From positions 1 to 47,518 of the IMG/VR virus record IMGVR_UViG_3300021420_000053: a stretch of 47,518 bases of DNA, one strand, 5' to 3'. Below are positions 3,385 through 47,518 of this stretch, piece by piece. The translations under genes and the position numbers were made by a program. The first letter of the stretch is position 1. Every line of letters starts with the position of its first letter. A model generated the notes under the pieces. That model was not told where the DNA came from and did not search any database. It worked only from the letters and a program-made list of their open reading frames with translations. Source of the stretch: a virus.

Positions 3385-3549
3385 ATGTTTGAGAATTACT
3401 GGGGATTGACCGGCGGCAAAGTGACCATAAACGGCTGCTTTACCATCGAGGAATTACAGGACGTACTGGATATCGCGCGCTCGGTGCCCGAGCAGGAACG
3501 CTGTACAGGGGTCGAGGTCGAACTTGACGGGTCCGAGTTGTTGCTTTAA
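3385..3549 (+). CDS. Hypothetical acidic 54-residue protein
   Basis: Begins immediately after the preceding stop (TAAATG), with CGGAGG upstream. MFENYWGLTGGKVTINGCFT is followed by a helix (IEELQDVLDIARSV) and an acidic beta end (GVEVELDGSELLL). Its 3' end forms the left arm of the hairpin that precedes the primase gene. Unknown function. Confidence 0.7.
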   Translation: MFENYWGLTGGKVTINGCFTIEELQDVLDIARSVPEQERCTGVEVELDGSELLL

Positions 3550-3575: not shown

Positions 3576-5795
3576 ATGTTCGCTGAGTACATCCGGCACG
3601 GTTGGGCGCTTTGCGCTATTCCGGGCGGTAAGAAAGGCCCGACTGGCGTCGGATGGAACGTTGCTGGTATTGCACTCGATGCTGCAGATGGCCTGGTAAA
3701 CGCCGGGTTACTCCACGCGCTGAGCGGCACGTGCGCCTTAGACCTAGATAATCTAGAGGCTGCCCGCCCGTGGCTCGCTGAGCGCGGTGTTGACGTTGAC
3801 GCGTTGCTCGATGCTGACGATGCGGTCCAGATAAGCTCAGGACGCGCAGGGCGGGCCAAACTCCTGTACCGTATGAAGCGCCCGCTCCGTACGTTTAAGC
3901 CGCCAGGGAGCGGCCTAGAACTGCGCTGTGCATCGGCCAACGGGAAGTCTGTTCAAGATGTCCTGCCCCCTAGTATGCATCCGGACACGAAGAAACCGTA
4001 TGAATGGGCGGGCGGGATTCTTGGCGACTGGCGTAGTCTGCCTACGATACCTGCGAATCTTCTAAACGTATGGCGCGATCTTGAGCCGGATATAAACAGT
4101 ACCATTTCTGCACAAGTGGTGTCATCAGGGGATGCGGATGCCACTGCCGCCAAGCAAAGTCCCCCGATAGACTTAGTAAAACTGCGTAAGGCGGCGTTCA
4201 CACATTCACCGGACTGCGAATATGACGAATGGATCAAAGTCGGTATGCAATTGCACGATGGCACTGACGGCGATGGTGCAGGCTTCGATATTTGGCGCGA
4301 CTGGTCCCGAGGTATTAAGCGTGCAGCGTACCCTGGCGATGTTGTGCTCAAATCACATTGGCTCAGCTTCGAATCGGGCGCCGGTAAGCACGTCGCGTCA
4401 GGCGAAGCGCTCGCAGCCGAAGCGCCCGTTGACATCGAGGACCTTGAAATTATCCCGGACGAAATCGCCAACGCGACGATCGTTGAGAAGCTAACAGGCA
4501 AAAGCGCGGAGCGGCTAAAAGCACTCGACGCGCTCACCGAACGTTTTGTGTTTGTAATTTGGGAACAGGAATACTTCGACGCCGAGCGCAACGTGCTCAT
4601 AGGCGACAAGGCGATCCGCCACATGCTGACGCCGCTCATGCCGCGTAAGAACGGCAAAGAGTTGGACCCAGTCGACCGCCTCATGCGAACCAAGGATAAG
4701 CGCAGCGTCGAAGCGCTCGCATTCTATCCAGGCGAATCATCGATATTCGAGTACAAAGGCAAGCGATACGCGAACCAATGGACTGATCGCAGCCCGACAC
4801 CGATTGCGCCAATGAAAGATGAACTCGAAAAAATTGATTGGCTCTTCGGACGCATCGATGATCCCGAATATCGATCGTGGCTCCTGCAATTCTACGCACA
4901 CATGGTCCAGCATCCAGGCATAAAGATTCGCACCGCGCCCCTCATTTGGTCGAAGGTACAAGGCAATGGCAAAAGCACAATCGTTGGAACCATCCCCAAA
5001 TTATTGGTGGGTGAAGACTATTACACTGAGGTTACGCAGGGCGAGCTTAATAGTGATCACAACGATTTCCTTATCGGAAAGTGGCACATTACCCTGGCGG
5101 AATTTCGTGCGGGTACACGTGGCGAACGGGAAGCTATCAGCAAGAAAGTGGAAAATTGGATCGCTGACGATATCCTTGCCGTACACCCGAAAGGGACGAA
5201 GGGCTACAGCATCCCTAACCATTTGGTCGTTACCGCGAGCACCAACAAGGATGACGCGGCACTGATCGATGAGAACGACCGCAAATGGGCGGTCCACAAC
5301 TTAAGCGCACCGGCAATGACCGGCGAGGAAAAAGAATGGTTATTCACAAAGTTCCTACGGACGAATCGAGCGCCGGCAGTATTGAGACACTATTTCCTTT
5401 CTGTACCGCTCACTACGTTCGATCCCAATGCCGACGCACCGAAGACGCACTCAAGATTCTCCATGATCGAGGCATCGATTGCTCCGGATTTAGAGATGCT
5501 CGTGACTTCCTTCGAAGAGCGCTCAGAGCCGCTATCGAAGGGTGTGGTAATCACCCGCGATGTAGCGGACTATGTGCGGCAACACTGCTCCGCGAAACCC
5601 TCAAATGATCGTATTGGCAAGATACTTGCAGGGCCACCTTTCAACGGTGTTGCCATGCGCAAGCGCGTCGGCCAGTCAATTTATCGCATGATCGCGCTTG
5701 ACCCTAGATGGATCAACGCAAGCGGCGCCGACACCATGAAGCATATCAACGGTGACGACGCCGAACTTGCTGACGGAAACGATTTACTGCTATGA
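3576..5795 (+). CDS. Primase-polymerase / superfamily 3-type helicase fusion
   Basis: 739 residues, the phage replicative primase-helicase. Residues 1 to about 170 look like the bifunctional primase/polymerase (Prim-Pol) domain: ALDLDN at 54-59 gives the catalytic acidic pair and SGRAGRAKLLYRM follows at 88-100. Residues about 200-270 fit a PriCT-2-type domain (DEWIKVGMQLHDG, then FDIWRDWSRG). The C-terminal half is a DUF5906/virulence-associated-E-type ATPase: Walker A QGNGKST at 462-468 and Walker B-like ITLAEF at 505-510. It would unwind the template and lay primers for the polymerase at 9893. ATG at 3576 is the only possible start (a stop lies at 3564), yet it has no clear ribosome binding site. 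Confidence 0.9.
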   Translation: MFAEYIRHGWALCAIPGGKKGPTGVGWNVAGIALDAADGLVNAGLLHALSGTCALDLDNLEAARPWLAERGVDVDALLDADDAVQISSGRAGRAKLLYRMKRPLRTFKPPGSGLELRCASANGKSVQDVLPPSMHPDTKKPYEWAGGILGDWRSLPTIPANLLNVWRDLEPDINSTISAQVVSSGDADATAAKQSPPIDLVKLRKAAFTHSPDCEYDEWIKVGMQLHDGTDGDGAGFDIWRDWSRGIKRAAYPGDVVLKSHWLSFESGAGKHVASGEALAAEAPVDIEDLEIIPDEIANATIVEKLTGKSAERLKALDALTERFVFVIWEQEYFDAERNVLIGDKAIRHMLTPLMPRKNGKELDPVDRLMRTKDKRSVEALAFYPGESSIFEYKGKRYANQWTDRSPTPIAPMKDELEKIDWLFGRIDDPEYRSWLLQFYAHMVQHPGIKIRTAPLIWSKVQGNGKSTIVGTIPKLLVGEDYYTEVTQGELNSDHNDFLIGKWHITLAEFRAGTRGEREAISKKVENWIADDILAVHPKGTKGYSIPNHLVVTASTNKDDAALIDENDRKWAVHNLSAPAMTGEEKEWLFTKFLRTNRAPAVLRHYFLSVPLTTFDPNADAPKTHSRFSMIEASIAPDLEMLVTSFEERSEPLSKGVVITRDVADYVRQHCSAKPSNDRIGKILAGPPFNGVAMRKRVGQSIYRMIALDPRWINASGADTMKHINGDDAELADGNDLLL

Positions 5796-5826
5796 TCCCC
5801 AAACCCCAAAACAGGAGTCCCACTCA

Positions 5827-6270
5827 ATGTCCGATAATAATCGTGAGCGCGCGCTTGCGGCAGCCCTCCAAGTAGGTGGCACGAGCCCGGCCGAAATCAT
5901 CGGTAAAGCCAATGTGTTCCTCGCCTTCCTGAACGGTGATAAGGCGCTCGATGCCCCAAAAGCCGAGAAGTCTGCCACCCCGGCAGCGAAAAAAGAGCCC
6001 GCTGTTGCGACTACCGTTGCGACGGAACCGGTTACGCCAAAGAAGACCGCTGGCGCCACCAAACCGGCCACTCCTGCTGCGAGTGCATCCCCTTCTGAGG
6101 GTGCTACCGAAGAGCAAGTCGGTAAGGCGATCGGCGCTATGCTGGAAGCCAACAAGAAAGCCGAAGCAATCGCGCTACTCGGCAAGTTCGGCGCTAAGAG
6201 CAAGTCAACGCTCGCCGAAGAGCACTATGCGGCATTCGTCGCGGGTGCCGAAGAGATCCTGCTTAGCTAA
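5827..6270 (+). CDS. Hypothetical Ala/Lys/Pro-rich protein
   Basis: 147 residues. The start is chosen at 5827, where ACAGGAGTC lies just upstream; the longer frame from 5752 overlaps the primase. Two short helical regions (residues 1-45 and 95-147) flank a long low-complexity linker of Ala, Thr, Pro and Lys (residues 46-93). The C-terminal part (VGKAIGAMLEANKKAEAIAL) is helical. Its position between the primase and DUF2800/DUF2815 genes suggests a replication or recombination accessory role; I do not recognise the family. Confidence 0.8.
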   Translation: MSDNNRERALAAALQVGGTSPAEIIGKANVFLAFLNGDKALDAPKAEKSATPAAKKEPAVATTVATEPVTPKKTAGATKPATPAASASPSEGATEEQVGKAIGAMLEANKKAEAIALLGKFGAKSKSTLAEEHYAAFVAGAEEILLS

Positions 6271-12559: not shown

Positions 12560-12756
12560 ACAAGTGCACTTGGGAATTGCGACATCGCTTCGCCACAGAC
12601 AACGAGGAGTATTGGTATGTCGTGTGCGATACGCGGTTCACGCCGCGCCGCGCCGATCGCGATTGGAGTCATTGCCCTTATTGCGGTCGGCCGATCACGT
12701 TCAGTGCGAACGACGAGCAGGGGCAACGGCATCTTGAGTTCATCGGACTCGCATGA
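12556..12756 (+). CDS. Zinc-ribbon protein with TTG start
   Basis: 66 residues from TTG at 12556, which overlaps the preceding stop (TTGA). The frame is open further upstream, but only inside the nuclease gene. Contains Cys near residue 4, VVCDT near 23 and HCPYCGRP near 40, the last a classic zinc knuckle. Overlaps the next gene by ATGA. Likely a small nucleic-acid or protein adaptor. Confidence 0.65.
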   Translation: MNKCTWELRHRFATDNEEYWYVVCDTRFTPRRADRDWSHCPYCGRPITFSANDEQGQRHLEFIGLA

Positions 12757-13232
12757 GACTCGTTCACTTAGAGCTAAAGGAAGCAAATGATTTCATTTCT
12801 TTGCATCATCGCCACCATAAACCTGTCACTGGTCATCGCTTTTCTATTGGATGTAGAGTGGCTAGAGCCGGCCCGGCCTACGATGTACTTGTTGGTTGTG
12901 CTATTGTCGGGCGCCCTGTTGGTGGAACTCATCAGTATGAATGGCTCGAAGTCACTCGATTGTGTACAGACGGCACCCCAAACGCCTGTAGCTTTCTGTA
13001 CGGCGCAGCAGTGCGAGCAGGCAAAGCCCTTGGGTACACTCGAATTCAAACCTACATTCTGAAGGAAGAGTCAGGAGTGTCCCTCAAGGCTAGTGGCTGG
13101 AAGTTCGATCGCATGTCGCATCCGCCGGGTTGGCACCATGACGGGCCGCGGAGCGCTCGCAAGGTCGAGGCGCATTTGATGGACCGCAAACAACTTTGGT
13201 ACAGGCCGTTGGTCGATGAGCTATTACTTTGA
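12753..13232 (+). CDS. XF1762 family protein, acetyltransferase-like
   Basis: 159 residues. The opening LELKEANDFISLHHRHHKPV with HRFSIGC is the hallmark of the family named after Xylella XF1762. The fold seems related to GNAT acetyltransferases (a beta strand VGCAIVGRPV, then LEVTRLCTDGTPNACSFLYG as the acceptor/CoA region). Biochemical function is not established. The family is common in phages and mobile elements near SNF2 helicases and VRR-NUC nucleases, as here. Its stop overlaps the TTG start of the helicase. Confidence 0.85.
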   Translation: MRLVHLELKEANDFISLHHRHHKPVTGHRFSIGCRVARAGPAYDVLVGCAIVGRPVGGTHQYEWLEVTRLCTDGTPNACSFLYGAAVRAGKALGYTRIQTYILKEESGVSLKASGWKFDRMSHPPGWHHDGPRSARKVEAHLMDRKQLWYRPLVDELLL

Positions 13233-39484: not shown

Positions 39485-41668
39485 CTATGGTCCAGGCGCG
39501 GCACCCGGTCCGCCGGTAGGCGGTAATGCTGGTGATCCGGGGCCTGATGGTGCCCCGCCTGGAGTCGGTTGCGGTGGCGGCGCGTCGCGCACGAGATCCG
39601 GCTGCGCGAGCTGCATAGCAGCAGCAGTCGTGATCTGCCCCGTGAGCTTGATGCTGACTTCCGGTTGAATCGGCGGAGGCGGCCCTCCCGCGCCCGGCGT
39701 GCCCGGAGGCGGCTTGCGCGGAATGAAGCGTTCAATGTCACTCTCGTCGCCGAGACGAAGCATGGTTTCTTTTACGAGCTCGATAAGCGCATTCGCCATA
39801 GGCATGTTGCCTTGGGCCATTGCGGCTTCGATTTCCTTCAACGTGTTCTGAATCAACGGAAGAATCGTGCTCCATGCCTGCATATCAGTCGCCTGGCGCG
39901 GCTTGCCGGTGCTGCCTGCTTCGATCGTGACCTCTACCATCGTGAAGAGATCCTCGATATCCATACCAGCCGGCCAAAACGCTTTCGTACCAGCCATCCG
40001 CATAACGTCTCGCGTCGACAGGCATTGTAGCGCTTGCTGCGCAGTGTACTCCGCCAGATCAGTAAGCATCGTTTCGAGGTTGTCTCGGTCACTCGTCGTG
40101 CGAGCTTGCGTTCCAGACTGCTGGATGTTCGCCTCGGTAGCCGTCTTCGGGTTCCCAGGACCATTGATAGCCGCCGAGAGTGCTTCCTGAACTCCTGAAA
40201 TTCTCTCCATGTCATTGAGGATAAGCGTGGGGTCATAGAGCCTCATGTCGATGCCCTGCACGGGCTTCGCTGCGAACAAATTGCCGATCGGCGTCGCCGG
40301 ATCACTCGGCCGGAGCGCCGTGTATTCCTGCGACTTCGACTCCTGTAGTTTCTTCGCCTCGACCTCGTCTAACATCGTCGCGTTGAACAACACACCAGGA
40401 ATGGATCGTTCGCGCGTTAGGCGAAAGTTGCTCCGTGACGATGAGTATTCGTCCTGGAGCTTGTATAGCCTCCACGATAGACTTTGCGCATGCCTCTGAC
40501 CATCCACTTCGTAGAAGGCAAAGTAAAAGTAGGGATAGAACCGGCTCGCTGGATATGGCGGTGGGTAGGGTTCCTTCGCCCATTTGTGTACTCCGTCAAT
40601 GAGTGTGCGAATCTGCTTGTCGCGGCGGTCCCAAATCTCGACTACGCGCAGAAACGCGAGTGATTCCTCGGTGCTGGTTGCCTGCACGAACGCTTGCGCG
40701 CTTTCTGCGGTCAACATTCCCTGCGGCAACACGTTGTCGACATCGCGCGTCGTCATTTCTTTCGGCGCACGTTGGTAATAGGTCTTCGCAGTGCGAATAT
40801 CTTCTGTCGTGAGACGATCGAACTTCGAAAGCGCGTCGTCTTTCGTCATGTACGTCTCGTTCCCGATCCAATCAGCGTTGAGATAATTTTCCACGCGGTT
40901 GATATCGGTCGAAACCTGAATATTCTCGGTCTCGACGTAGTCCACAACGAACATGCGGCTGACGGCAAGTTCCAATTTTTCTTCGAGTGACTTGATTAGC
41001 TCTGCCTTTTCGGCAAGCTCAGACTCGCGTGACTCCGAGTCGCCTTCATCCGGGTCCTCGAGGAGCTTCTGCTGCGCCTGGATGCGCGCGTGCGTCTCCA
41101 TAGCGTCATTCAATGCCGACTCGACTTCCGGCATCGGCCGCTTGTCCGAGACCATCGTCGCTTTGAACCAGCCCTCACCGTTGGAGAGTACAGAACGTAC
41201 TCCGGTTCGGGCCGGGCTTTTGAGATTTGCTTTCTTCCACAGACTGGAGATAACTATTTCCAGTGTGCGGGCGAAAATTTGCATCTGATACGTGTTCGAT
41301 TCGTCAACCTGTGGCGATTTACGTACAGATACATCAGGATTTCTAGCGTAAAGTAAAGCCACCAAGATATCGATAAATGCACCGATAAGATTGGTAGTAA
41401 CGGCCCAAGCGAGATCAGACGTGCCGGCGGCGTAACGCCGGTCAATCGCAATTTGCTTGCGGAAATTCTCATCAAACTTGCGCGCATCGTTGTACTCTTT
41501 CCACTTTTTCTCGACTTGCGCGCGTTCCTTAGCCTCTTCCTCTTTGGAAAGCTCCTGCTTCTGTTCAACGCCGTCATCCATGCCCTCGCCGCCCTGCCGC
41601 GGGTCGGTAAGCTGGCCGCCTCCGCCGCCGGGGGTCGCTGGACCATTGGATGCGCCGGACGTTGACAT
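39485..41668 (-). CDS. Portal protein
   Basis: 727 residues. The size, Gly/Pro-rich ends and helical core match the large portals of P22-like podoviruses. Near residue 500 the segment SAAINGPGNPKTATEANIQQ followed by DNLETMLTDLAEYTAQQALQ is the long stem helix region seen in these portals. A proline-rich tail (residues 680-727) follows. It forms the dodecameric ring for DNA entry and binds terminase and adaptor. Confidence 0.85.
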   Translation of the reverse strand: MSTSGASNGPATPGGGGGQLTDPRQGGEGMDDGVEQKQELSKEEEAKERAQVEKKWKEYNDARKFDENFRKQIAIDRRYAAGTSDLAWAVTTNLIGAFIDILVALLYARNPDVSVRKSPQVDESNTYQMQIFARTLEIVISSLWKKANLKSPARTGVRSVLSNGEGWFKATMVSDKRPMPEVESALNDAMETHARIQAQQKLLEDPDEGDSESRESELAEKAELIKSLEEKLELAVSRMFVVDYVETENIQVSTDINRVENYLNADWIGNETYMTKDDALSKFDRLTTEDIRTAKTYYQRAPKEMTTRDVDNVLPQGMLTAESAQAFVQATSTEESLAFLRVVEIWDRRDKQIRTLIDGVHKWAKEPYPPPYPASRFYPYFYFAFYEVDGQRHAQSLSWRLYKLQDEYSSSRSNFRLTRERSIPGVLFNATMLDEVEAKKLQESKSQEYTALRPSDPATPIGNLFAAKPVQGIDMRLYDPTLILNDMERISGVQEALSAAINGPGNPKTATEANIQQSGTQARTTSDRDNLETMLTDLAEYTAQQALQCLSTRDVMRMAGTKAFWPAGMDIEDLFTMVEVTIEAGSTGKPRQATDMQAWSTILPLIQNTLKEIEAAMAQGNMPMANALIELVKETMLRLGDESDIERFIPRKPPPGTPGAGGPPPPIQPEVSIKLTGQITTAAAMQLAQPDLVRDAPPPQPTPGGAPSGPGSPALPPTGGPGAAPGP

Positions 41669-41671
41669 GGA

Positions 41672-42022
41672 TTAACTCTGGAGATCCGCGTACGGGTCGT
41701 TGACTTCGACTACCGGGCTCGGCGTCGGATTCTTGATGATCTCCGGATCCATTTTACCCTGCGGCATCTTCGCCTTCATGCGTGCCCATGCGGCATCCGC
41801 TGCAGCCTGCATATGCTCGGGTGAAATTGTCGCTTGCTGCTCGACCGTGTTAACCGGTTGGGTAGCCTGCGTGAGCGGAGAATTGGACTTGGCCGGTGTC
41901 GCCGTCGAGCGCCGAGCAATTGCCGGCAGCATGTCGTTATTCAGCTTCGCGTTACCGGCGGAAGCTACTTCAGTCGAGTCGTCTATGATTTGAGTCTGGA
42001 AGCCGGGGCGTGATCGGATCAT
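41672..42022 (-). CDS. Hypothetical protein before portal
   Basis: 116 residues, polar, Ala/Thr/Pro-rich and probably disordered, with one helix (SPEHMQAAADAAWARMKAKM). Ends 4 bases before the portal start and overlaps the upstream gene by ATGA. Function unknown. Confidence 0.75.
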   Translation of the reverse strand: MIRSRPGFQTQIIDDSTEVASAGNAKLNNDMLPAIARRSTATPAKSNSPLTQATQPVNTVEQQATISPEHMQAAADAAWARMKAKMPQGKMDPEIIKNPTPSPVVEVNDPYADLQS

Positions 42023-42330
42023 TGTGGTTGCTCCTGATTCGGCAGAACGATAGGGGTCGAACTGCTGTATGGTACAGCAACTCCCTGATTAGTCAAAACC
42101 TTGGGCCACACGTTGGCCCCTCCGGTAGTCAGTACAGGTGCACTTACCGTTGTATTGACGACGCCGTAATCGAGCACAGGACCGGCCCATATCGGTGTCG
42201 CGCTCGCGGCAATGCCATTAGTTGAGAGAATGCTCGGCACCAACTGAGATATGGTGTACGGCACTCCGGGCGAACTGCGAGTGAATGGTGTCGGCACGCC
42301 GCTTCCTCCGCCGCCTCCACCTCCTGTCAC
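42019..42330 (-). CDS. Gly/Pro/Ser/Val-rich small protein
   Basis: 103 residues. Starts with a glycine run (MTGGGGGGGSGVPTPFTRSS), then low-charge beta-type sequence (VLTTGGANVWPKVLTNQGVA). One of three consecutive small genes of this style (with 42327 and 42640). Coupled by ATGA. Possibly a virion surface or head-fibre component; no family known. Confidence 0.7.
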   Translation of the reverse strand: MTGGGGGGGSGVPTPFTRSSPGVPYTISQLVPSILSTNGIAASATPIWAGPVLDYGVVNTTVSAPVLTTGGANVWPKVLTNQGVAVPYSSSTPIVLPNQEQPQ

Positions 42331-42638
42331 GGACCGCCGCCGGTCGTGAGGCCGCTACCTTTATTGAGGATGCCGCCCGGCGACTGATAGATCGGGCCGG
42401 TAACCGCGACTTGCTGTTCGGCGACTACGCTGTTGCTCGAGACACAACCGGGATACGGATTGACCTGAGTCGTGAGCGCGAAGTTTACTCCGCCCTGAGC
42501 AGTCGTGAGCGGCGTTCCGATATACTGCGGCGAACTGACAGTAGTCAGCACTCCGCCTTGGACATATACAGTCGGAGTGACTTGACCATTAAGACCAGTG
42601 TTGTTCGAGAACGAAGCGTCCTTGTAATCCTGCGGCAT
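42327..42638 (-). CDS. Gly/Val/Thr-rich small protein, related to next gene
   Basis: 103 residues, beta-rich. The stretch ALTTQVNPYPGCVSSNS parallels QLTTQTNPNPGVNPGNQ in the next upstream gene (42640-42840), suggesting a shared short repeat or ancient duplication. The end (GSGLTTGGGP) is glycine-rich, like the start of the next downstream gene. Function unknown. Confidence 0.7.
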   Translation of the reverse strand: MPQDYKDASFSNNTGLNGQVTPTVYVQGGVLTTVSSPQYIGTPLTTAQGGVNFALTTQVNPYPGCVSSNSVVAEQQVAVTGPIYQSPGGILNKGSGLTTGGGP

Positions 42639-42639
42639 A

Positions 42640-42840
42640 TCAACTTCTCTTCGGCTTGATGCCGCCGTGATTCTCTGGCCAACCGGCTTCAGCCTGCACG
42701 TATGGCACGGTGATGGTGAGCGAATATTGATTGCCGGGATTGACTCCTGGATTTGGATTCGTCTGCGTTGTCAACTGCGCGGTGACTGCGGTATTAGCCG
42801 CTGCCTGATTTTTGCCGGGTTCTGAATTGACCTGTGCCAT
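42640..42840 (-). CDS. Small protein with TTQxNPxPG motif
   Basis: 66 residues. Ala/Asn/Gln-rich helix at the start (NQAAANTAVTAQLTTQTNPN), then a beta segment (QYSLTITVPYVQAEAGWPEN) and a basic end (GGIKPKRS). Shares the LTTQ-NP-PG stretch with the neighbouring gene. Overlaps the upstream gene by one base (TAATG). Confidence 0.7.
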   Translation of the reverse strand: MAQVNSEPGKNQAAANTAVTAQLTTQTNPNPGVNPGNQYSLTITVPYVQAEAGWPENHGGIKPKRS

Positions 42841-43025
42841 TAAAACACCCTATGCAGAATGGCCGAAATCACACCGAAGTGACTGACGGCGAACCCAACA
42901 ACAGCGGCGACGGCCTTGGTGTAGTGCGCTTTGAAGAACGCAACAACCTTTGACTCGTCGGCCTTGACCACAGCAACATCGGCCTTAACGGCGGATGCGA
43001 TGGATGAAATAGTTGCGTCAGCCAT
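42840..43025 (-). CDS. Small amphipathic/membrane-like protein
   Basis: 61 residues. The first half is a charged helix with repeats of the type KADVAVVKADESKVVAFFKA; the second half is hydrophobic (AVAAVVGFAVSHFGVISAIL), long enough for one membrane span. No holin-like charge pattern at the C-terminus. Overlaps the terminase nuclease gene by one base. Unknown role. Confidence 0.7.
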   Translation of the reverse strand: MADATISSIASAVKADVAVVKADESKVVAFFKAHYTKAVAAVVGFAVSHFGVISAILHRVF

Positions 43026-43687
43026 TAGAAATACCTCACTTTCGGTTTCTGATTGCGGTCATTGTACTCGATCCACTTTTCGGTGAACGGCACAAGTAAG
43101 GGTTTAGTATCGCTCAAAGGAACTTGGGGGTCAAACATCTTGTCAACCCCGCGACCGATAAGACCGCATACGTCCGCCTTGTCGTCCCATCTTCCGGCTG
43201 GAAATTTAACGAGTTGCGTGATGACGCCACCCTCGCCCTTAGAGCCGTTTCCGTCCGACCACGCGCGATTCACCGGCAAGTGGATCGCACCCGCGCAGGC
43301 CATGGCGTGAAACGCTTGCAGCTTATATGCTTTGTCCGTCAGCGACGGGAGTGATTCGATAACGGTGTACGTTTGGCGGTCGCGCATCGCTTTGCGTTTC
43401 TGTGCGCCGATCGCTTTGTCGATCAATCCGCCTTCGTCGAACCAGTAGATAGGCTTCCATCGTGCGACGAGGTTAAGCCATGCCGTGATCCCCACGTCGG
43501 TCTCACATTGCTTGCTCCACCAGTCAATGGCCCACAACTCGCCTCGCCGATCAATCCCCCACACGCCGTGCTCAGTGAAGTCAGGCTCTTTCTTACCCGC
43601 TTTAGGTTCCATTGTTGCGAAGTCAGACGCGCCATAAATGCGAAGAGTCTTCGGAAGCGCATCGAGGCCGTCATACATTTGAATCAC
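43025..43687 (-). CDS. Terminase large subunit, nuclease (RuvC-like) half
   Basis: 220 residues from GTG 43687, overlapping the stop of the intervening gene. It carries the three acidic positions of the headful nuclease: D22 in IYGASDFATM, D84/E85 in YWFDEGGLID and D168-D169/D172 in WDDKADVCGL, plus WGIDRRGELWAIDWW, the usual second strand pair. It begins exactly where the ATPase half stops (both contain an MY after F/I-x). It would cut packaged DNA after the head is filled, in complex with the product of 43878-44918. Confidence 0.88.
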   Translation of the reverse strand: MIQMYDGLDALPKTLRIYGASDFATMEPKAGKKEPDFTEHGVWGIDRRGELWAIDWWSKQCETDVGITAWLNLVARWKPIYWFDEGGLIDKAIGAQKRKAMRDRQTYTVIESLPSLTDKAYKLQAFHAMACAGAIHLPVNRAWSDGNGSKGEGGVITQLVKFPAGRWDDKADVCGLIGRGVDKMFDPQVPLSDTKPLLVPFTEKWIEYNDRNQKPKVRYF

Positions 43688-43881
43688 GGATTACACTGCT
43701 TCAGCTCGCCGCTAGGGGCGACGTAGATCGCCGTAGGGCAGCCGTGGTCGTTACGCTTGAGATTTTCTTGATCCCACGACTGCAGCTTGATCTCACCCTC
43801 GTGCGGGTTGTAACGGTGCATGTGGATGCCGCCTTCCGTGAGGAGCACTGCGAGTGTTATAGCAAACAGAATTTTCTTCAT
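43684..43881 (-). CDS. Secreted-type small protein between the terminase halves
   Basis: 65 residues. MKKILFAITLAVLLTEGGIH is a signal-peptide-like or signal-anchor start. The rest is polar, with two Cys (HGCPTAIYVAP and LKQCNP). It is coupled to both terminase genes: its ATG overlaps the ATPase stop (ATGA) and its TGA overlaps the nuclease GTG (GTGA). It is not similar to terminase. An envelope function such as exclusion is only a guess; it is an insertion of a cargo gene at a domain boundary. Confidence 0.75.
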   Translation of the reverse strand: MKKILFAITLAVLLTEGGIHMHRYNPHEGEIKLQSWDQENLKRNDHGCPTAIYVAPSGELKQCNP

Positions 43882-44918
43882 GTGTCTACTCGTGCGAGAT
43901 CCGGATTGTACATCCGAAACATCTCGCGGTTAAAGTGAACGCCAGTGAAGGGCGCGGGACGCTGCTGATAAAGCGCAGCCCACGTTCGCGCAGCGCGCGG
44001 ATTATCGCGCCACGTACTCCAGTGTTCCTTAGGAAACCATTCGGGCCAAAGAAACTCACCGGGTTTCCGTCCAAGAACGTCGTCGTCCCTTTCGGCTTCG
44101 GCGGGTATACAAAGAACTTCCCATTCCTGTCCATCACGACAACGTATGAGTCCGCTTTCACCGGAATAGTCTGCGGGGAGAATGGAACCACTTAAGTCCT
44201 CCTCATGCCAGCGCGTTTGTATGATCAGCACCGACATGCGCGGCTTGGCGCGCGTCATGGCAGTGTCAAGATACTCGTTGTACGTCTTCTCGCGGATCGC
44301 AGGCGAGTCGGCCTGCTCGCGGTTTGCTACAGGATCGTCTAGCACCAAAAGATCACAACGATTTCCAGTGATGCCCGCGAGCAGGCCGGCTGCCATCATG
44401 CTCGATCCGTTCGTCATTTGCCAGTCGTCGATCGCGCGCTGGTCATCCTGGAGGACCGGCTTGGTTTCCCAAATACCTGTGTAGCTCGGATCGCGTACAA
44501 TCGATCGCACTTTCCGCGATTGTTTTGTAGCTATAGTAGTAGCATACGAACCTAAGATCACCTGGAAACCAGGCCACTTGCCCATTGCCCAAGCCGGCCC
44601 CAATACAGCCCCGTAGGTAGATTTCCCCGAACCGGGGGGTTCGAATATCATCGTTCGTCCGCGTGGTTTCTCTATGCATCTCTGTATCGCCTGCATGGTT
44701 AGGATGTGGTGAATTGCAACGCGCGACTCGACGGGTGTGTACGAAACCTTTACGTGCTCGATGCGGTCTTTAAGCTTTCCCTTCTCGTCCTCTTCGTCGA
44801 TGATCTCGACTTGCGGCACGCCCGGCACATCGATCGACTGGCTGAAGTCGACCAAGCTGGCGCGGCTGCGCTCGCGGCGTTGCAACTCGTTTGAGTATCG
44901 GTGGGGGGCTAGCTCCAT
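43878..44918 (-). CDS. Terminase large subunit, ATPase half
   Basis: 346 residues. Walker A PPGSGKST at 94-101, Walker B LLVLDDPV with the Asp pair at 194-195, and coupling motif IIQTRWHEEDL with QTRWH at 234-238. It ends after HFNREMFRMYN, the linker that normally joins the nuclease domain, with only nine further residues (the stop lies at the ATGA overlap). The packaging motor thus seems to be encoded by two genes. Its own start has TGAGGT just upstream, 3 bases after the small subunit stop. Confidence 0.9.
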   Translation of the reverse strand: MELAPHRYSNELQRRERSRASLVDFSQSIDVPGVPQVEIIDEEDEKGKLKDRIEHVKVSYTPVESRVAIHHILTMQAIQRCIEKPRGRTMIFEPPGSGKSTYGAVLGPAWAMGKWPGFQVILGSYATTIATKQSRKVRSIVRDPSYTGIWETKPVLQDDQRAIDDWQMTNGSSMMAAGLLAGITGNRCDLLVLDDPVANREQADSPAIREKTYNEYLDTAMTRAKPRMSVLIIQTRWHEEDLSGSILPADYSGESGLIRCRDGQEWEVLCIPAEAERDDDVLGRKPGEFLWPEWFPKEHWSTWRDNPRAARTWAALYQQRPAPFTGVHFNREMFRMYNPDLARVDT

Positions 44919-44921
44919 ACC

Positions 44922-45275
44922 TCAGTCTAGCAGTGGGTCGTGGGCTGGCACAAGTCGGCGCGGCGGCTCGTAGGCGGCGATCTTCTCGCGCAGCTCATCA
45001 TCGGTCATCATCGCGAGTTGCCGCTCCTCGTCGCGCGCGGTCGGCGCCTGGATGCCGCCATGGTTCTTCAACTTGTCCGCTGCGTTCACCCGATCGCCGG
45101 CTTTCGCGAACGTATCCTCCATGATCTCCTGAAGGATCTTCAGTGCTTCCTCCTGATACGCGCGTGAGATGTTCGCGGACTTCAGCAGCTTGTCTGCCGC
45201 CGACACGCGATCGCGGTCCTCGGCGGAGTGCAACAGTTGCACTAACGTCGAGATCGCATCGTCGCGGAGACTCAT
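44922..45275 (-). CDS. Terminase small subunit candidate
   Basis: 117 residues, mostly helical: an N-terminal pair of helices (LRDDAISTLVQLLHSAEDRD), a second repeat-like helical pair (YQEEALKILQEIMEDTFAKA, then RVNAADKLKN) and a basic/proline end. Both halves contain R-V-[SN]-A-A-D-K-L, an internal duplication. Position directly before the large subunit gives the assignment; sequence similarity alone is weak. Coupled to the upstream gene by ATGA. Confidence 0.7.
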   Translation of the reverse strand: MSLRDDAISTLVQLLHSAEDRDRVSAADKLLKSANISRAYQEEALKILQEIMEDTFAKAGDRVNAADKLKNHGGIQAPTARDEERQLAMMTDDELREKIAAYEPPRRLVPAHDPLLD

Positions 45276-45529
45276 GGCGGATAATGCCCGTGATCGTGGT
45301 GAATATGCTTCGGGTCATCGTCGATCCACACGTCCGCGTCGTAGTGTTGGTCCTTTGCCTTGAATGCGCAATAGATCACCTCGATGCCTGTGACCGGCAC
45401 TGGCGTAGCCTCATTGCGGCTAGTGACGATCGTAACCTCGTGGCCGCGCATGTACGCCATGCCGACAAAGCAAATCCAAAGATCCGGGTCACGAGTAAAT
45501 GTGTTGTCGTAGTCGAGCGCGATTTTCAT
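45272..45529 (-). CDS. HAD-like phosphatase fragment or small HAD protein
   Basis: 85 residues. MKIALDYDNTFTRDPDLWIC contains the HAD motif I (DYDNT), and VTIVTSRNEATPV carries the motif II Thr/Ser. DVWIDDDPKHI has the motif IV Asp pair. A compact, cap-less HAD protein of this size resembles the 5'(3')-deoxyribonucleotidase-like or polynucleotide-kinase-phosphatase fold; motif III Lys is likely in FKAKDQHYDA. Acts on a phosphorylated nucleotide or DNA end. Confidence 0.75.
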   Translation of the reverse strand: MKIALDYDNTFTRDPDLWICFVGMAYMRGHEVTIVTSRNEATPVPVTGIEVIYCAFKAKDQHYDADVWIDDDPKHIHHDHGHYPP

Positions 45530-45825
45530 TAGACCTCAGTCCCGCACTTGTACTGAATGTTGATCCCCTCAACATCACCAATCGCGGTGACGAGTTGCGC
45601 TTTCGCCTCGTCCGACAGATCGTCGACGCGCAGCTTCACGGCCTTGCCGTTCGAGAAGATCAGCACGACGTGCGAGATCGGCCGCGGGCAGCCCCACACA
45701 TGTACCCACGTCATCAGCTTCGGCTCCGCCGGCTTCTCGGCGCTGAACGCCGCGGTGAAGATCAACCCCCACGTCATCATCGTGAAGAGAACAATTCCTG
45801 CCCAAACTTTACCGCGATAACTCAT
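45529..45825 (-). CDS. Secreted or membrane-anchored small protein
   Basis: 98 residues from ATG 45825 in an ATGA overlap; longer frames to 45921 lie in the previous gene. The signal sequence YRGKVWAGIVLFTMMTWGLI continues to a cleavage-like FSAEKPAEP. The mature part has beta strands and one Cys pair (WGCPRPI and YKCGTEV). An envelope location is likely; function unknown. Confidence 0.7.
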   Translation of the reverse strand: MSYRGKVWAGIVLFTMMTWGLIFTAAFSAEKPAEPKLMTWVHVWGCPRPISHVVLIFSNGKAVKLRVDDLSDEAKAQLVTAIGDVEGINIQYKCGTEV

Positions 45826-46070
45826 GGATGAAACCCCCAAGGTAGACCATTGAATCCTGTGTTCGGGTGCTCGGGCTCTTCGACTGTAGTCGTAGCGGCC
45901 GGCTGCTCGATCCACTTCCACTTCACGTTGTACTCCGCATAGGCGTACGTTTCAAGCGCGCGGTTACCAGGCTCGAATATCGACAGATCGACGAACGTGT
46001 CATCGTGCACGTGCGTGATAATCGCGGCGCGCTTACCGGCAAGGACTACGGCACCGACGTACGGCTTCAT
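45822..46070 (-). CDS. Hypothetical 82-residue protein
   Basis: Starts at ATG 46070, coupled to the upstream lipoprotein stop. The N-terminus is beta-rich (MKPYVGAVVLAGKRAAIITH), followed by VHDDTFVDLSIF and a Trp-rich segment (YNVKWKWIEQPAA). Such small beta-barrel-like proteins recur next to terminase genes in phages (unknown function). Confidence 0.7.
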   Translation of the reverse strand: MKPYVGAVVLAGKRAAIITHVHDDTFVDLSIFEPGNRALETYAYAEYNVKWKWIEQPAATTTVEEPEHPNTGFNGLPWGFHP

Positions 46071-46213
46071 TAGAATCTCCAAGTGACGTGAAGTTGCTTG
46101 CCGTGGCATGCATCAATCGTAAGTGGCTCATCGTTGTGTTTCTGCCAGCAATCGATGTGAACTGCCGGCGCCGTGCATCCGCAGAGCAGCATCACAAGAA
46201 GTAGTGCGCGCAT
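46070..46213 (-). CDS. 47-residue lipoprotein
   Basis: MRALLLVMLLCGCTAPAVHI has a short basic start, hydrophobic core and lipobox LLCGC, with Cys13 the probable lipidation site; the mature part is about 34 residues with two Cys (DCWQKHN and IDACHGK) that could form a disulphide. It is the second gene of the leftward block. Outer-membrane lipoproteins early in an operon could change the cell surface, for example in superinfection exclusion; this is inference. Confidence 0.6.
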   Translation of the reverse strand: MRALLLVMLLCGCTAPAVHIDCWQKHNDEPLTIDACHGKQLHVTWRF

Positions 46214-46446
46214 ATCGCTAGAAGAATACCAGCCAGGTAACCAGAAAAATCCGCTGCGTTGTCGCCGAACGTTTGGTCCACCTCAAAGTGCTTGTCGATG
46301 TAGAACTCTTTGACGCCGGCTGCGATGAGCGCGCCAGGTACTATCCACCAATGGAAGAAGGTAAAAACTGTCGCGTAGGCAAACCAGCAGTGCGCGTTGA
46401 AGGTAATGAACGCGGGCGTGACGATTTTTGTTAGTAGGTTGGGCAT
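46192..46446 (-). CDS. Small membrane protein, first gene of the leftward block
   Basis: 84 residues from ATG 46446, preceded by no clear ribosome binding site but by a -10-like TATAAC 7 bases upstream. MPNLLTKIVTPAFITFNAHC, two membrane segments (residues about 18-42 and 65-84) and a charged middle (GVKEFYIDKHFEVDQTFGDN). It may be translated from a leaderless transcript. Function unknown. Confidence 0.65.
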   Translation of the reverse strand: MPNLLTKIVTPAFITFNAHCWFAYATVFTFFHWWIVPGALIAAGVKEFYIDKHFEVDQTFGDNAADFSGYLAGILLAICAHYFL

Positions 46447-46453
46447 GAGTGGA

Positions 46454-46483
46454 GTTATACCCCGGCCGGCATTCCAATAGCAA
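46454..46483 (-). promoter_or_regulatory. Sigma-70-like promoter with leaderless start
   Basis: Minus strand TTGCTA (46478-46483), 18-base spacer, TATAAC (46454-46459). Four and five of six bases match the consensus. The -10 ends 7 bases before the ATG of the 84-residue gene, so its transcript would begin at or near the start codon. Confidence 0.45.
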
Positions 46484-46528
46484 GTCGGTTTGGGTCCCTC
46501 GCGCGATACCCCCCGGCCTTCCAAACTT

Positions 46529-46544
46529 GGCACGATTCTTGGGT
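46529..46544 (+). promoter_or_regulatory. Degenerate sigma-54-like site
   Basis: TGGCACGATTCTTGGG (plus strand) equals the leftward sigma-54 site (TGGCACGATTATTGCG) except for two bases, but its -12 dinucleotide is GG instead of the required GC. It points into non-coding sequence, so it may be a decoy, a protein-binding repeat or a relic. Confidence 0.3.
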
Positions 46545-46696
46545 CCTTTCTAGCGGTTGGCGTTGGGCGTGCAACATAGCGCCCGCTCGCTCCGCAATCC
46601 GCGGGTCCCTCAAAAGGGTCCCCGCCCGGCTCGCAATGTACCGTCCTCGGTCGCCTAGGCGATACGCGAGCCGCGCGCCGAGCGCTCCGTGGGATG

Positions 46697-46743
46697 TGTG
46701 CCGCTTGCGGCGTATAGATCCAAGAGGCACGGGAAGCGGCACA
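46697..46743. repeat. 10-bp inverted repeat
   Basis: TGTGCCGCTT (46697-46706) and AAGCGGCACA (46734-46743) are perfect complements. The enclosed 27 bases contain one more AAGAGGCAC unit (46722-46730) of the iteron family found in the larger inverted repeat. Confidence 0.75.
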
Positions 46744-46762
46744 TAGCTAATTGCCGAGGAAA

Positions 46763-46885
46763 AGCAGCGTTTGTGCCTCTTGTGCCTCTTGTGACTCTTA
46801 ATATACGACTATGCATGTGCGCGCGCACAGAGGGAGGGAGTGACTATATAGCGTCACAAGAGGCACAAGAGGCACAAACGCTGCT
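46763..46885. repeat. Perfect 33-bp inverted repeat made of 9-bp iterons
   Basis: Positions 46763-46795 are the exact reverse complement of 46853-46885; the arms are separated by 57 bases that include an AT-rich stretch and the palindrome TGTGCGCGCGCACA (46816-46829). Each arm holds tandem 9-bp units GTGCCTCTT (46773-46781, 46782-46790, then the variant GTGACTCTT) or their complements (46858-46866, 46867-46875). Origin, cruciform or RNA hairpin are all possible. Confidence 0.9.
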
Positions 46886-46903
46886 AAGTTATTGATTGTA
46901 CTA

Positions 46904-46971
46904 CGTGCCACTTGTGCGTGCCGCTATCCGTGCCGCCTGACACAAACCGCTGCTCGCAATAATCGTGCCAC
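46904..46971. repeat. Four CGTGCC(A/G)C repeats
   Basis: CGTGCCAC or CGTGCCGC occurs at 46904-46911, 46917-46924, 46929-46936 and 46964-46971. In the minus orientation each reads like the -24 element (T/C)GGCACG of a sigma-54 promoter. Only the last has a matching -12 element. Confidence 0.75.
46956..46970 (-). promoter_or_regulatory. Leftward sigma-54 (RpoN) promoter, perfect consensus
   Basis: Minus-strand TGGCACGATTATTGC fits the established consensus TGGCACGN4TTGC with GG (-24) and GC (-12) separated by exactly 10 bases. Expected start near 46944, which would give a leader of roughly 500 bases before the gene at 46446, crossing the 33-bp inverted repeat. Confidence 0.65.
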
Positions 46972-46982
46972 TGACAATTTTT

Positions 46983-47021
46983 GTCACTTTGTGACGGTCA
47001 CAATGTGACACTATTTGTCAC
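46983..47021. promoter_or_regulatory. Array of five alternating GTCAC/GTGAC half-sites
   Basis: GTCAC (46983), GTGAC (46991), GTCAC (46997), GTGAC (47005) and GTCAC (47017) alternate within 39 bases, forming several overlapping dyads. The array lies between the two divergent sigma-54-like promoters, where an enhancer-binding protein or repressor would bind both. Confidence 0.7.
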
Positions 47022-47069
47022 CGCGCTGCACAAATCAAGCATTCAGCCGTCCGCTTGCAGCGTTTGCGT

Positions 47070-47085
47070 TGGCACGCCCGATGCA
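47070..47085 (+). promoter_or_regulatory. Rightward sigma-54-like promoter
   Basis: TGGCACGCCCGATGCA keeps GG and GC spaced by exactly 10 bases; only the first T of TTGC differs. Predicted start near 47096 gives a leader of about 27 bases before the 73-residue gene with its GGAG site. It faces away from the leftward promoter. Confidence 0.6.
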
Positions 47086-47122
47086 TACTCTTCTGTGAGA
47101 GCAACGAACCGGAGACAGACAG

Positions 47123-47344
47123 ATGGATACAGCCGATACCCGATGCGTGGTGACAGTGGTCAACCAAGGAGTACGCTTCTTCTTGCGCGGTACCACATGG
47201 GCATTCCACCTTGACCGCGCCAATGTCTTTGCCGATGCGCCAGCAGCGTATGACGCGGCCGACAAGGCGCGCAAATTTATGCCCCCTAAGATCCGTAAGA
47301 CGTACGAAGTGTGGGCACTGAAGACGGCACAACGCGAGGTCTGA
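47123..47344 (+). CDS. First gene of the rightward operon, hypothetical
   Basis: 73 residues with GGAG 9 bases upstream. MDTADTRCVVTVVNQGVRFF and the following LRGTTWAFHLDRANVF are beta-type, then a helix (APAAYDAADKARKFMPPKIR). It is the first gene after the rightward sigma-54-like promoter and so probably among the earliest expressed. Family unknown; a short (CATGGG/CCCATG) dyad follows it. Confidence 0.8.
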   Translation: MDTADTRCVVTVVNQGVRFFLRGTTWAFHLDRANVFADAPAAYDAADKARKFMPPKIRKTYEVWALKTAQREV

Positions 47345-47391
47345 GCACTGAACCATGGGCCGCACGCGCGACCCATGCTTGAGTGACAGGC

Positions 47392-47518
47392 AACCGATAG
47401 GAGCGAACATGTCAGACACCAACAACGCGGCAGCTAACGCGGCAGCTAACGCGGCAGCTAACGCGGCAGCTAACGCGGCAGCTAACGCGGCAGCTAACGC
47501 GGCAGCTAACGCGGCAGC
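47392..47518. repeat. Terminal redundancy of the contig, right copy
   Basis: This is an exact copy of bases 1-127. It repeats the ribosome binding site, start codon and most of the 12-bp tandem array of the gene at 18-293. It should be trimmed or merged, and the second, truncated copy of that gene should not be counted. Confidence 0.9.

Follow-up and report, generated by a model that had tools for sequence, protein, structure and literature searches.

A perfect inverted repeat built of tandem 9-bp repeats (iterons) lies between two gene modules of the viral genome analysed here, and we consider it likely to be a replication origin for initiation of the PrimPol-SF3 type in a phage infecting bacteria. 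The whole stretch of DNA under analysis, hereafter the window, is 47,518 nucleotides long and constitutes a complete IMG/VR virus record. An origin is the best reading because the element goes with a replication gene in a plasmid and also in phages, whether or not a terminase is near. The preliminary description had proposed an iteron origin, and comparison between genomes speaks for it: the layout recurs with changed sequence and adjoins the same type of replication gene, including that of pRN1. The sequences themselves show the anatomy of the element, that it recurs, that its arms match although they are hypervariable, and that it is linked to one class of replication gene.

At such an origin, 9-bp iterons in inverted arrays (two exact and one degenerate copy per side) would seed initiator complexes that face one another; the AT-rich, Z-prone centre between the arrays would be melted, the primase-polymerase would prime on the exposed strands to give two forks, and an IHF-like protein would bend the DNA beside the right arm. 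Binding of the initiator, melting, priming and bidirectionality are thus what we infer for the element. The initiator may read the iterons itself, or by way of a small DNA-binding partner.

The inverted repeat and its genomic setting

An exact direct overlap of 127 bp between the two ends of the record indicates a circular or terminally redundant map. Genes read rightward encode, among others, a PrimPol-PriCT_2-DUF5906 protein, DUF2800, an Enc34-type ssDNA-binding protein, a family A polymerase and an SNF2 helicase; terminase is among the products of the leftward genes. The element occupies the 590-bp gap between the rightward (early) and leftward (terminase) modules; it lies on the early side approximately 4 kb from the PrimPol gene, and not 3' of it. 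Divergent promoters had been proposed next to the repeat. The flanking genes (46192-46533 on the minus strand and 47123-47344 on the plus strand) are indeed divergent, but the promoters are unsupported, with one sigma-70-like match against 0.5 expected. The searches brought up no close cultured relative: the PrimPol matches (220) and the terminase matches (1664) all fall below 60% identity, a blastn search of window positions 40001-47518 against phages gave no match, and a PrimPol pattern search of genome contigs returned 73 pattern stretches and no relative.

The repeat consists of perfect 33-bp arms (46763-46795 and 46853-46885) around a 57-nt centre (Table 1), just as first described, and the judgement that it is far from chance holds: with arms up to 1 kb apart and the whole window searched, the next longest perfect inverted repeat is 14 bp. 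Repeated 9-mers do make up the arms; period 9 was detected, and GTGCCTCTT stands twice in each arm at 9-bp spacing. All five exact copies of this sequence in the window are at the element (at 46773 and 46782 on the plus strand, and at 46858, 46867 and 46722 on the minus strand) and none is elsewhere. The inner 14-bp palindrome is likewise present, inside a 20-nt alternating run. The description of the centre as AT-rich is partly borne out, by TTAATATA and TATATA, but the remainder holds a GC-rich run. Beside the right arm is a fit to the IHF consensus, which is WATCARNNNNTTR. A tRNA scan of the DNA found none, and GC skew in the window tracks gene direction and is therefore uninformative on the origin.

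Table 1. Coordinates of the element and of associated features in the window.
Feature	Position	Strand	Remark
Replication protein: Prim-Pol, PriCT_2, DUF5906/VapE (SF3-like), C-terminal winged helix	3576-5795	+	Proposed initiator
Large terminase subunit, N-terminal part	43878-44918	-	Query for relatives
Putative small terminase subunit	44922-45275	-	By position; without Pfam match
Conserved non-coding element GGGACCCTTTTGAGGGACCC ... GCGGGCGCTATGTTGCACGCCCAACGC	46556-46634	-	Anchor for relatives
Fifth exact GTGCCTCTT	46722-46730	-	Beyond the arms
Left arm, 33 bp	46763-46795	+	Perfect inverted repeat of right arm
Three 9-bp iterons: GTGCCTCTT, GTGCCTCTT, degenerate GTGACTCTT	46773-46799	+	Degenerate copy at 46791
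AT-rich stretch TTAATATA	46798-46808	.	Candidate melting segment (function inferred); read directly
20-nt alternating purine-pyrimidine tract	46810-46829	.	Z-DNA-prone
14-bp palindrome TGTGCGCGCGCACA	46816-46829		Within purine-pyrimidine tract
TATATA	46845-46850		In centre
Right arm, 33 bp	46853-46885	-	
Two 9-bp iterons GTGCCTCTT	46858-46875	-	Plus degenerate GTGAC.. at 46849-46857
AATCAATAACTTA, fits IHF consensus	46885-46897	-	Abuts right arm
GTGAC/GTCAC palindrome cluster	46977-47022	.	Possible operator; similar in several relatives
First early gene beside array, 73 aa	47123-47344	+	Without Pfam match

Several other features of the genome deserve mention. The conserved non-coding element between the array and the terminase genes has two hairpin-like parts and is found by a profile in tens of loci; it may be a late promoter, a leader or a packaging signal. 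At 18-293 and 47412-47518 a twelve-base tandem repeat, GCGGCAGCTAAC, lies inside a gene and encodes AANA repeats; it is present at both record ends, and the circular map closes within it. Many early proteins, including PrimPol and small HTH proteins, end in acidic di-leucine tails (DPLLL, DELLL, DLLS), in the window at 3576-5795, 5752-6270, 12753-13232 and 3385-3549, and also in loci L104, L110, L113, L100 and L101. Such tails may be a common means of docking to the replication machinery.

The same position in relatives

The relatives comprised the best 80 of 164 terminase relatives together with PrimPol relatives, and were anchored by a profile of the conserved non-coding element. The anchor matched at E of at most 1 in 59 loci; regions shorter than 250 bp and near-duplicates were dropped, leaving 45 non-redundant syntenic regions, some kept on weak anchor scores. 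Identical 6-mers at a spacing of 9 bp form 189 pairs in 28 phages of this set. Shuffled sequences gave a mean of 4.9 and a maximum of 13 pairs, and control windows of the same loci a mean of 14.5 (maximum 36) in a mean of 9.1 phages (maximum 16). The 8-bp spacing is enriched as well, with 74 pairs against a control maximum of 16. Spacings 12 and 18 exceed the shuffles, yet prove nothing because control windows reach higher pair counts.

A tandem core of 8-9-bp repeats was recognised in 36 of the 45 regions, in the gap between terminase and early genes, and was not found in the other nine; 29 cores are distinct. Inverted copies of a phage's own core number 58, against 6.7 expected, and occur in 26 of the 36 phages, while ACA or TGT is part of the core in 23 of 36 (background 14.8% of 6-mers). 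Alternating purine-pyrimidine tracts of at least 15 nt are present in 13 of the 45 regions (control windows: mean 0.33, maximum 3), and 22 IHF-consensus sites are spread over 18 regions (control mean 0.6, maximum 4). A search for DnaA boxes gave one match, in one of the 45 regions. In twelve additional PrimPol-related loci no array was convincing; the origin may lie outside most of them. Among the relatives the sequence of the arms is hypervariable, with the arms matched and the flanks conserved.

These data bear on whether it is the folded structure that is read, as a DNA cruciform or hairpin or as a leader RNA hairpin with a 33-bp stem, the repeats being incidental. The very strong RNA hairpin of the preliminary description is real in terms of stability: folded as RNA the element reaches -76.1 kcal/mol (z -12.2), a value equalled by none of 200 shuffles, and folded as DNA it has a z of -10.8. 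Moreover, pRN1 needed matched arms in one test, as reported in PMC4234260. That a hairpin is what is conserved is not, however, supported. In the family the array of tandem repeats is kept more often than the stem, since 17 of 35 array loci have no inverted match of at least 9 to the array; perfect stems of at least 15 are a minority, and an Rfam search of the element gave no match at gathering score. We consider it very unlikely that the fold is what is recognised.

Two further observations concern the array regions. In L018 (3080-3210) a direct duplication of approximately 60 bp within the array region carries TATATACGAGGCATCTAACGAGCGCGCG and a purine-pyrimidine run. On the early-gene side of the array in the window, GTGACA..TGTCAC palindromes form a cluster that is an operator candidate; unlike the iterons, these palindromes look alike between phages (window; L018 2859-2917; L094 3447-3487).

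Candidate readers of the iterons

The loci L118 and L095 have most of the region in common, and nearly all of their iterons differ, in both arms: GAGACA in L118; TAGACA, AAGACA, TGGACA or shortened forms in L095. The arms change together, in line with the covariation put forward earlier as a check, and independent divergence was not seen. Between the same loci the PrimPol winged helix is 100% identical, the helicase half 98% and the PrimPol N-terminal part 73%, with frame changes breaking both the HTH gene and the PrimPol gene of the L118 record, so that pieces were compared separately. These breaks (L118 554-987 and 4619-6770) are either real or sequencing-derived. Given an identical winged helix and changed iterons, either recognition by the winged helix is limited to the GACA that the iterons have in common, or specificity comes from a different protein. 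Restriction avoidance was considered as the cause of the change in L095 and rejected: GAGAC/GTCTC is near expectation there (14 seen, 18.1 expected).

A wider comparison covered 17 phages with iterons assigned by eye, leaving out L106 and L107 (PrimPol N-terminus only) and L100 and L114 (no clear iteron or no C-terminus). Iteron differences did not track winged helix differences in this set (r 0.04, p 0.35); for the PrimPol N-domain r was 0.29 (p 0.011, partial p 0.026), which is not significant after correction for five domains. The C-terminus of the window's replication protein is modelled as a winged helix (pLDDT 85), for which Foldseek returned no match at E of at most 0.001; the P4 origin-binding domain is not among the 50 matches listed there or in a second fold listing, and may stand below them.

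In many relatives the first early gene beside the array encodes a small HTH protein of resolvase/transposase type, with weak Pfam HTH matches, and this neighbour is a candidate reader of the iterons there. The same protein could instead be a regulator, and the array an operator controlling the divergent early and late transcripts, with replication starting elsewhere. The place of the array between divergent modules is in keeping with an operator, as is the position of the HTH gene next to it; so too is the L118-L095 comparison, in which the iterons differ and the HTH protein is approximately 70% identical, against 100% for the winged helix and 94.7% for the putative small terminase subunit (the latter for the L004/L118 record against L007, which has differing iterons, as L095 does). 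Arrays are present, however, even though no such HTH protein is seen among the first early genes of the window and, as judged by eye, of about half the relatives. In addition, the element follows the primase gene in phages BarrelRoll and AXY1, and the pRN1 element is required for replication, according to PMC4234260. On balance an operator is unlikely, and we retain the origin as the preferred reading.

PrimPol-SF3 replicons and known origins

Beyond the family, a periodic inverted repeat was found within 900 bp 3' of a PrimPol-type gene in 9 of 15 replicons, compared with 1 of 220 control windows. The 15 replicons were hand-picked: BIP-1 and pRN1 were chosen because a paper names them, and the rest, taken from match lists, give 7 of 13. 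The arms measure 22 bp in BIP-1, 20 in BcepC6B, 19 in Acinetobacter phage 4316 and 21 in pRN1. In Acinetobacter phage 4316, BcepC6B, BarrelRoll, AXY1 and Vibrio phage 1.017.O such an element comes after the primase gene; MR14 and AH2, two of the nine, are weak positives. No periodic repeat scored 3' of the gene in KLEP18-1, SS2019XI, Xp15, Wrath, Silvanus and phiM5. Downstream DNA is shorter than 500 bp in two records (Wrath 315, AXY1 447). DSL-LC05 (L124), which is outside the set of 15, has no array.

These replicons also bear on whether the array is a pac site, a packaging signal recognised by the small terminase subunit. The pac site of phage P1 has inverted hexamer clusters with an IHF site, and arrays are upstream of the terminase genes in the window family, BPP-1, BcepC6B and Acinetobacter phage 4316. 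Against this stand BarrelRoll and AXY1, in which no terminase is annotated near the element, the near-identity of the putative small terminase subunits compared above despite different iterons, and pRN1, which is a plasmid. A pac site is, to our minds, very improbable, and an origin is again the reading that we prefer.

The pRN1 arms, TTATGTCCATAGTGTCCAACT and its complement at 5084-5104 and 5163-5183, hold TGGACA twice, 9 bp apart, and the stem-loop found here coincides exactly with the 100-bp element published as 5084-5183 (PMC3869888). Related plasmids are similar: pHEN7 has TGTCA at 9-bp spacing, and in pRN2 GGAC recurs at that spacing when inspected by eye, too short a match for the 5-mer test applied here. 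PMC4234260 reports that the stem-loop is required for replication, that it suffices together with the replication operon, and that it still worked when moved, a place 3' of the gene being not essential. In the same report the replication protein was not seen to bind the region specifically in gel shifts and footprints, and one change in the stem was tolerated only with a matching change in the other arm. This compensation, together with the absence of specific binding, cautions against taking it as settled that the initiator reads the iterons unaided. According to the available text of PMC4234260 the pRN1 origin is without iteron structure; the word "iteron" does not occur in that of PMC3869888, and we found no description of 9-bp iterons in pRN1-type arms in the open-access literature. 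The inverted-iteron layout thus apparently went unremarked in an origin that had been mapped.

We put at about even the chance of a broader proposition, that inverted pairs of 9-bp-spaced iterons around a loop of 55-80 nt are a common origin code of PrimPol-SF3-winged-helix replicons, from archaeal plasmids to bacterial phages. Spacing and symmetry would be kept, the letters would drift or switch fast, as though compatibility or immunity were under selection, and reading would fall to an exchangeable partner, not to the conserved winged helix. If so, the "stem-loop origin" of pRN1 becomes an iteron origin, and 9-bp spacing, inverted arms and a PrimPol gene make a searchable signature for unmapped phage origins. 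Fast switching of iterons under a constant winged helix would also make it testable what reads the origin and why the code changes fast.

Known systems resemble the window to different degrees. The helicase region of NrS-1 polymerase is homologous to the window's replication protein (PDB profile search, E 2e-17), and NrS-1 belongs to the nearest folds listed for the winged helix, level with others (Z 5.3-5.5). The iteron sequence of P4 is GGTGAACA. NrS-1 differs from the window in that just two copies of the known 8-nt template site are present in the NrS-1 genome (PMC7102993). In the P4 alpha/ori system a winged helix is at the origin repeats (PMC4234260), and in SaPI Rep/Cch2 short iterons are read by the C-terminal domain of the initiator helicase (PMC7581432); tandem short direct repeats beside AT-rich DNA, as in such iteron origins and those of plasmids, are present in the window. 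P4 and SaPI differ in that the available sources do not describe two inverted 9-bp-spaced arrays around a loop, and in that the P4 primase is of Toprim type.

More similar are BPP-1 and BIP-1 (Rauchvirus), with 22-bp perfect arms of 9-bp repeats (ACGAGGCAA) and a loop of 60, placed between terminase and primase genes; they differ in that the element is 3' of the primase gene and the early module is another. PMC4234260, which proposes that PrimPol-SF3-winged-helix proteins assemble at stem-loops and names Bordetella phage BIP-1, reports a putative stem-loop origin there and, in its available text, not the iterons inside it; the 22-bp-arm element is probably the stem-loop of its Figure 6. In pRN1 (Sulfolobus islandicus) the stem is 21 bp and the loop 58 nt, against 33 and 57 in the window. 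The pRN1 element differs in lying just 3' of the replication gene, in having one iteron pair per arm and in its archaeal host. The two nevertheless share arms of 9-bp-spaced repeats, an inverted repeat of approximately 100 bp with a perfect stem and a long loop, and a PrimPol-SF3-winged-helix protein (ORF904 in pRN1) of similar domain order; and the stem that PMC4234260 reports as hypervariable between relatives of pRN1, with conserved flanks, has its counterpart in the hypervariable, matched arms of the window family.
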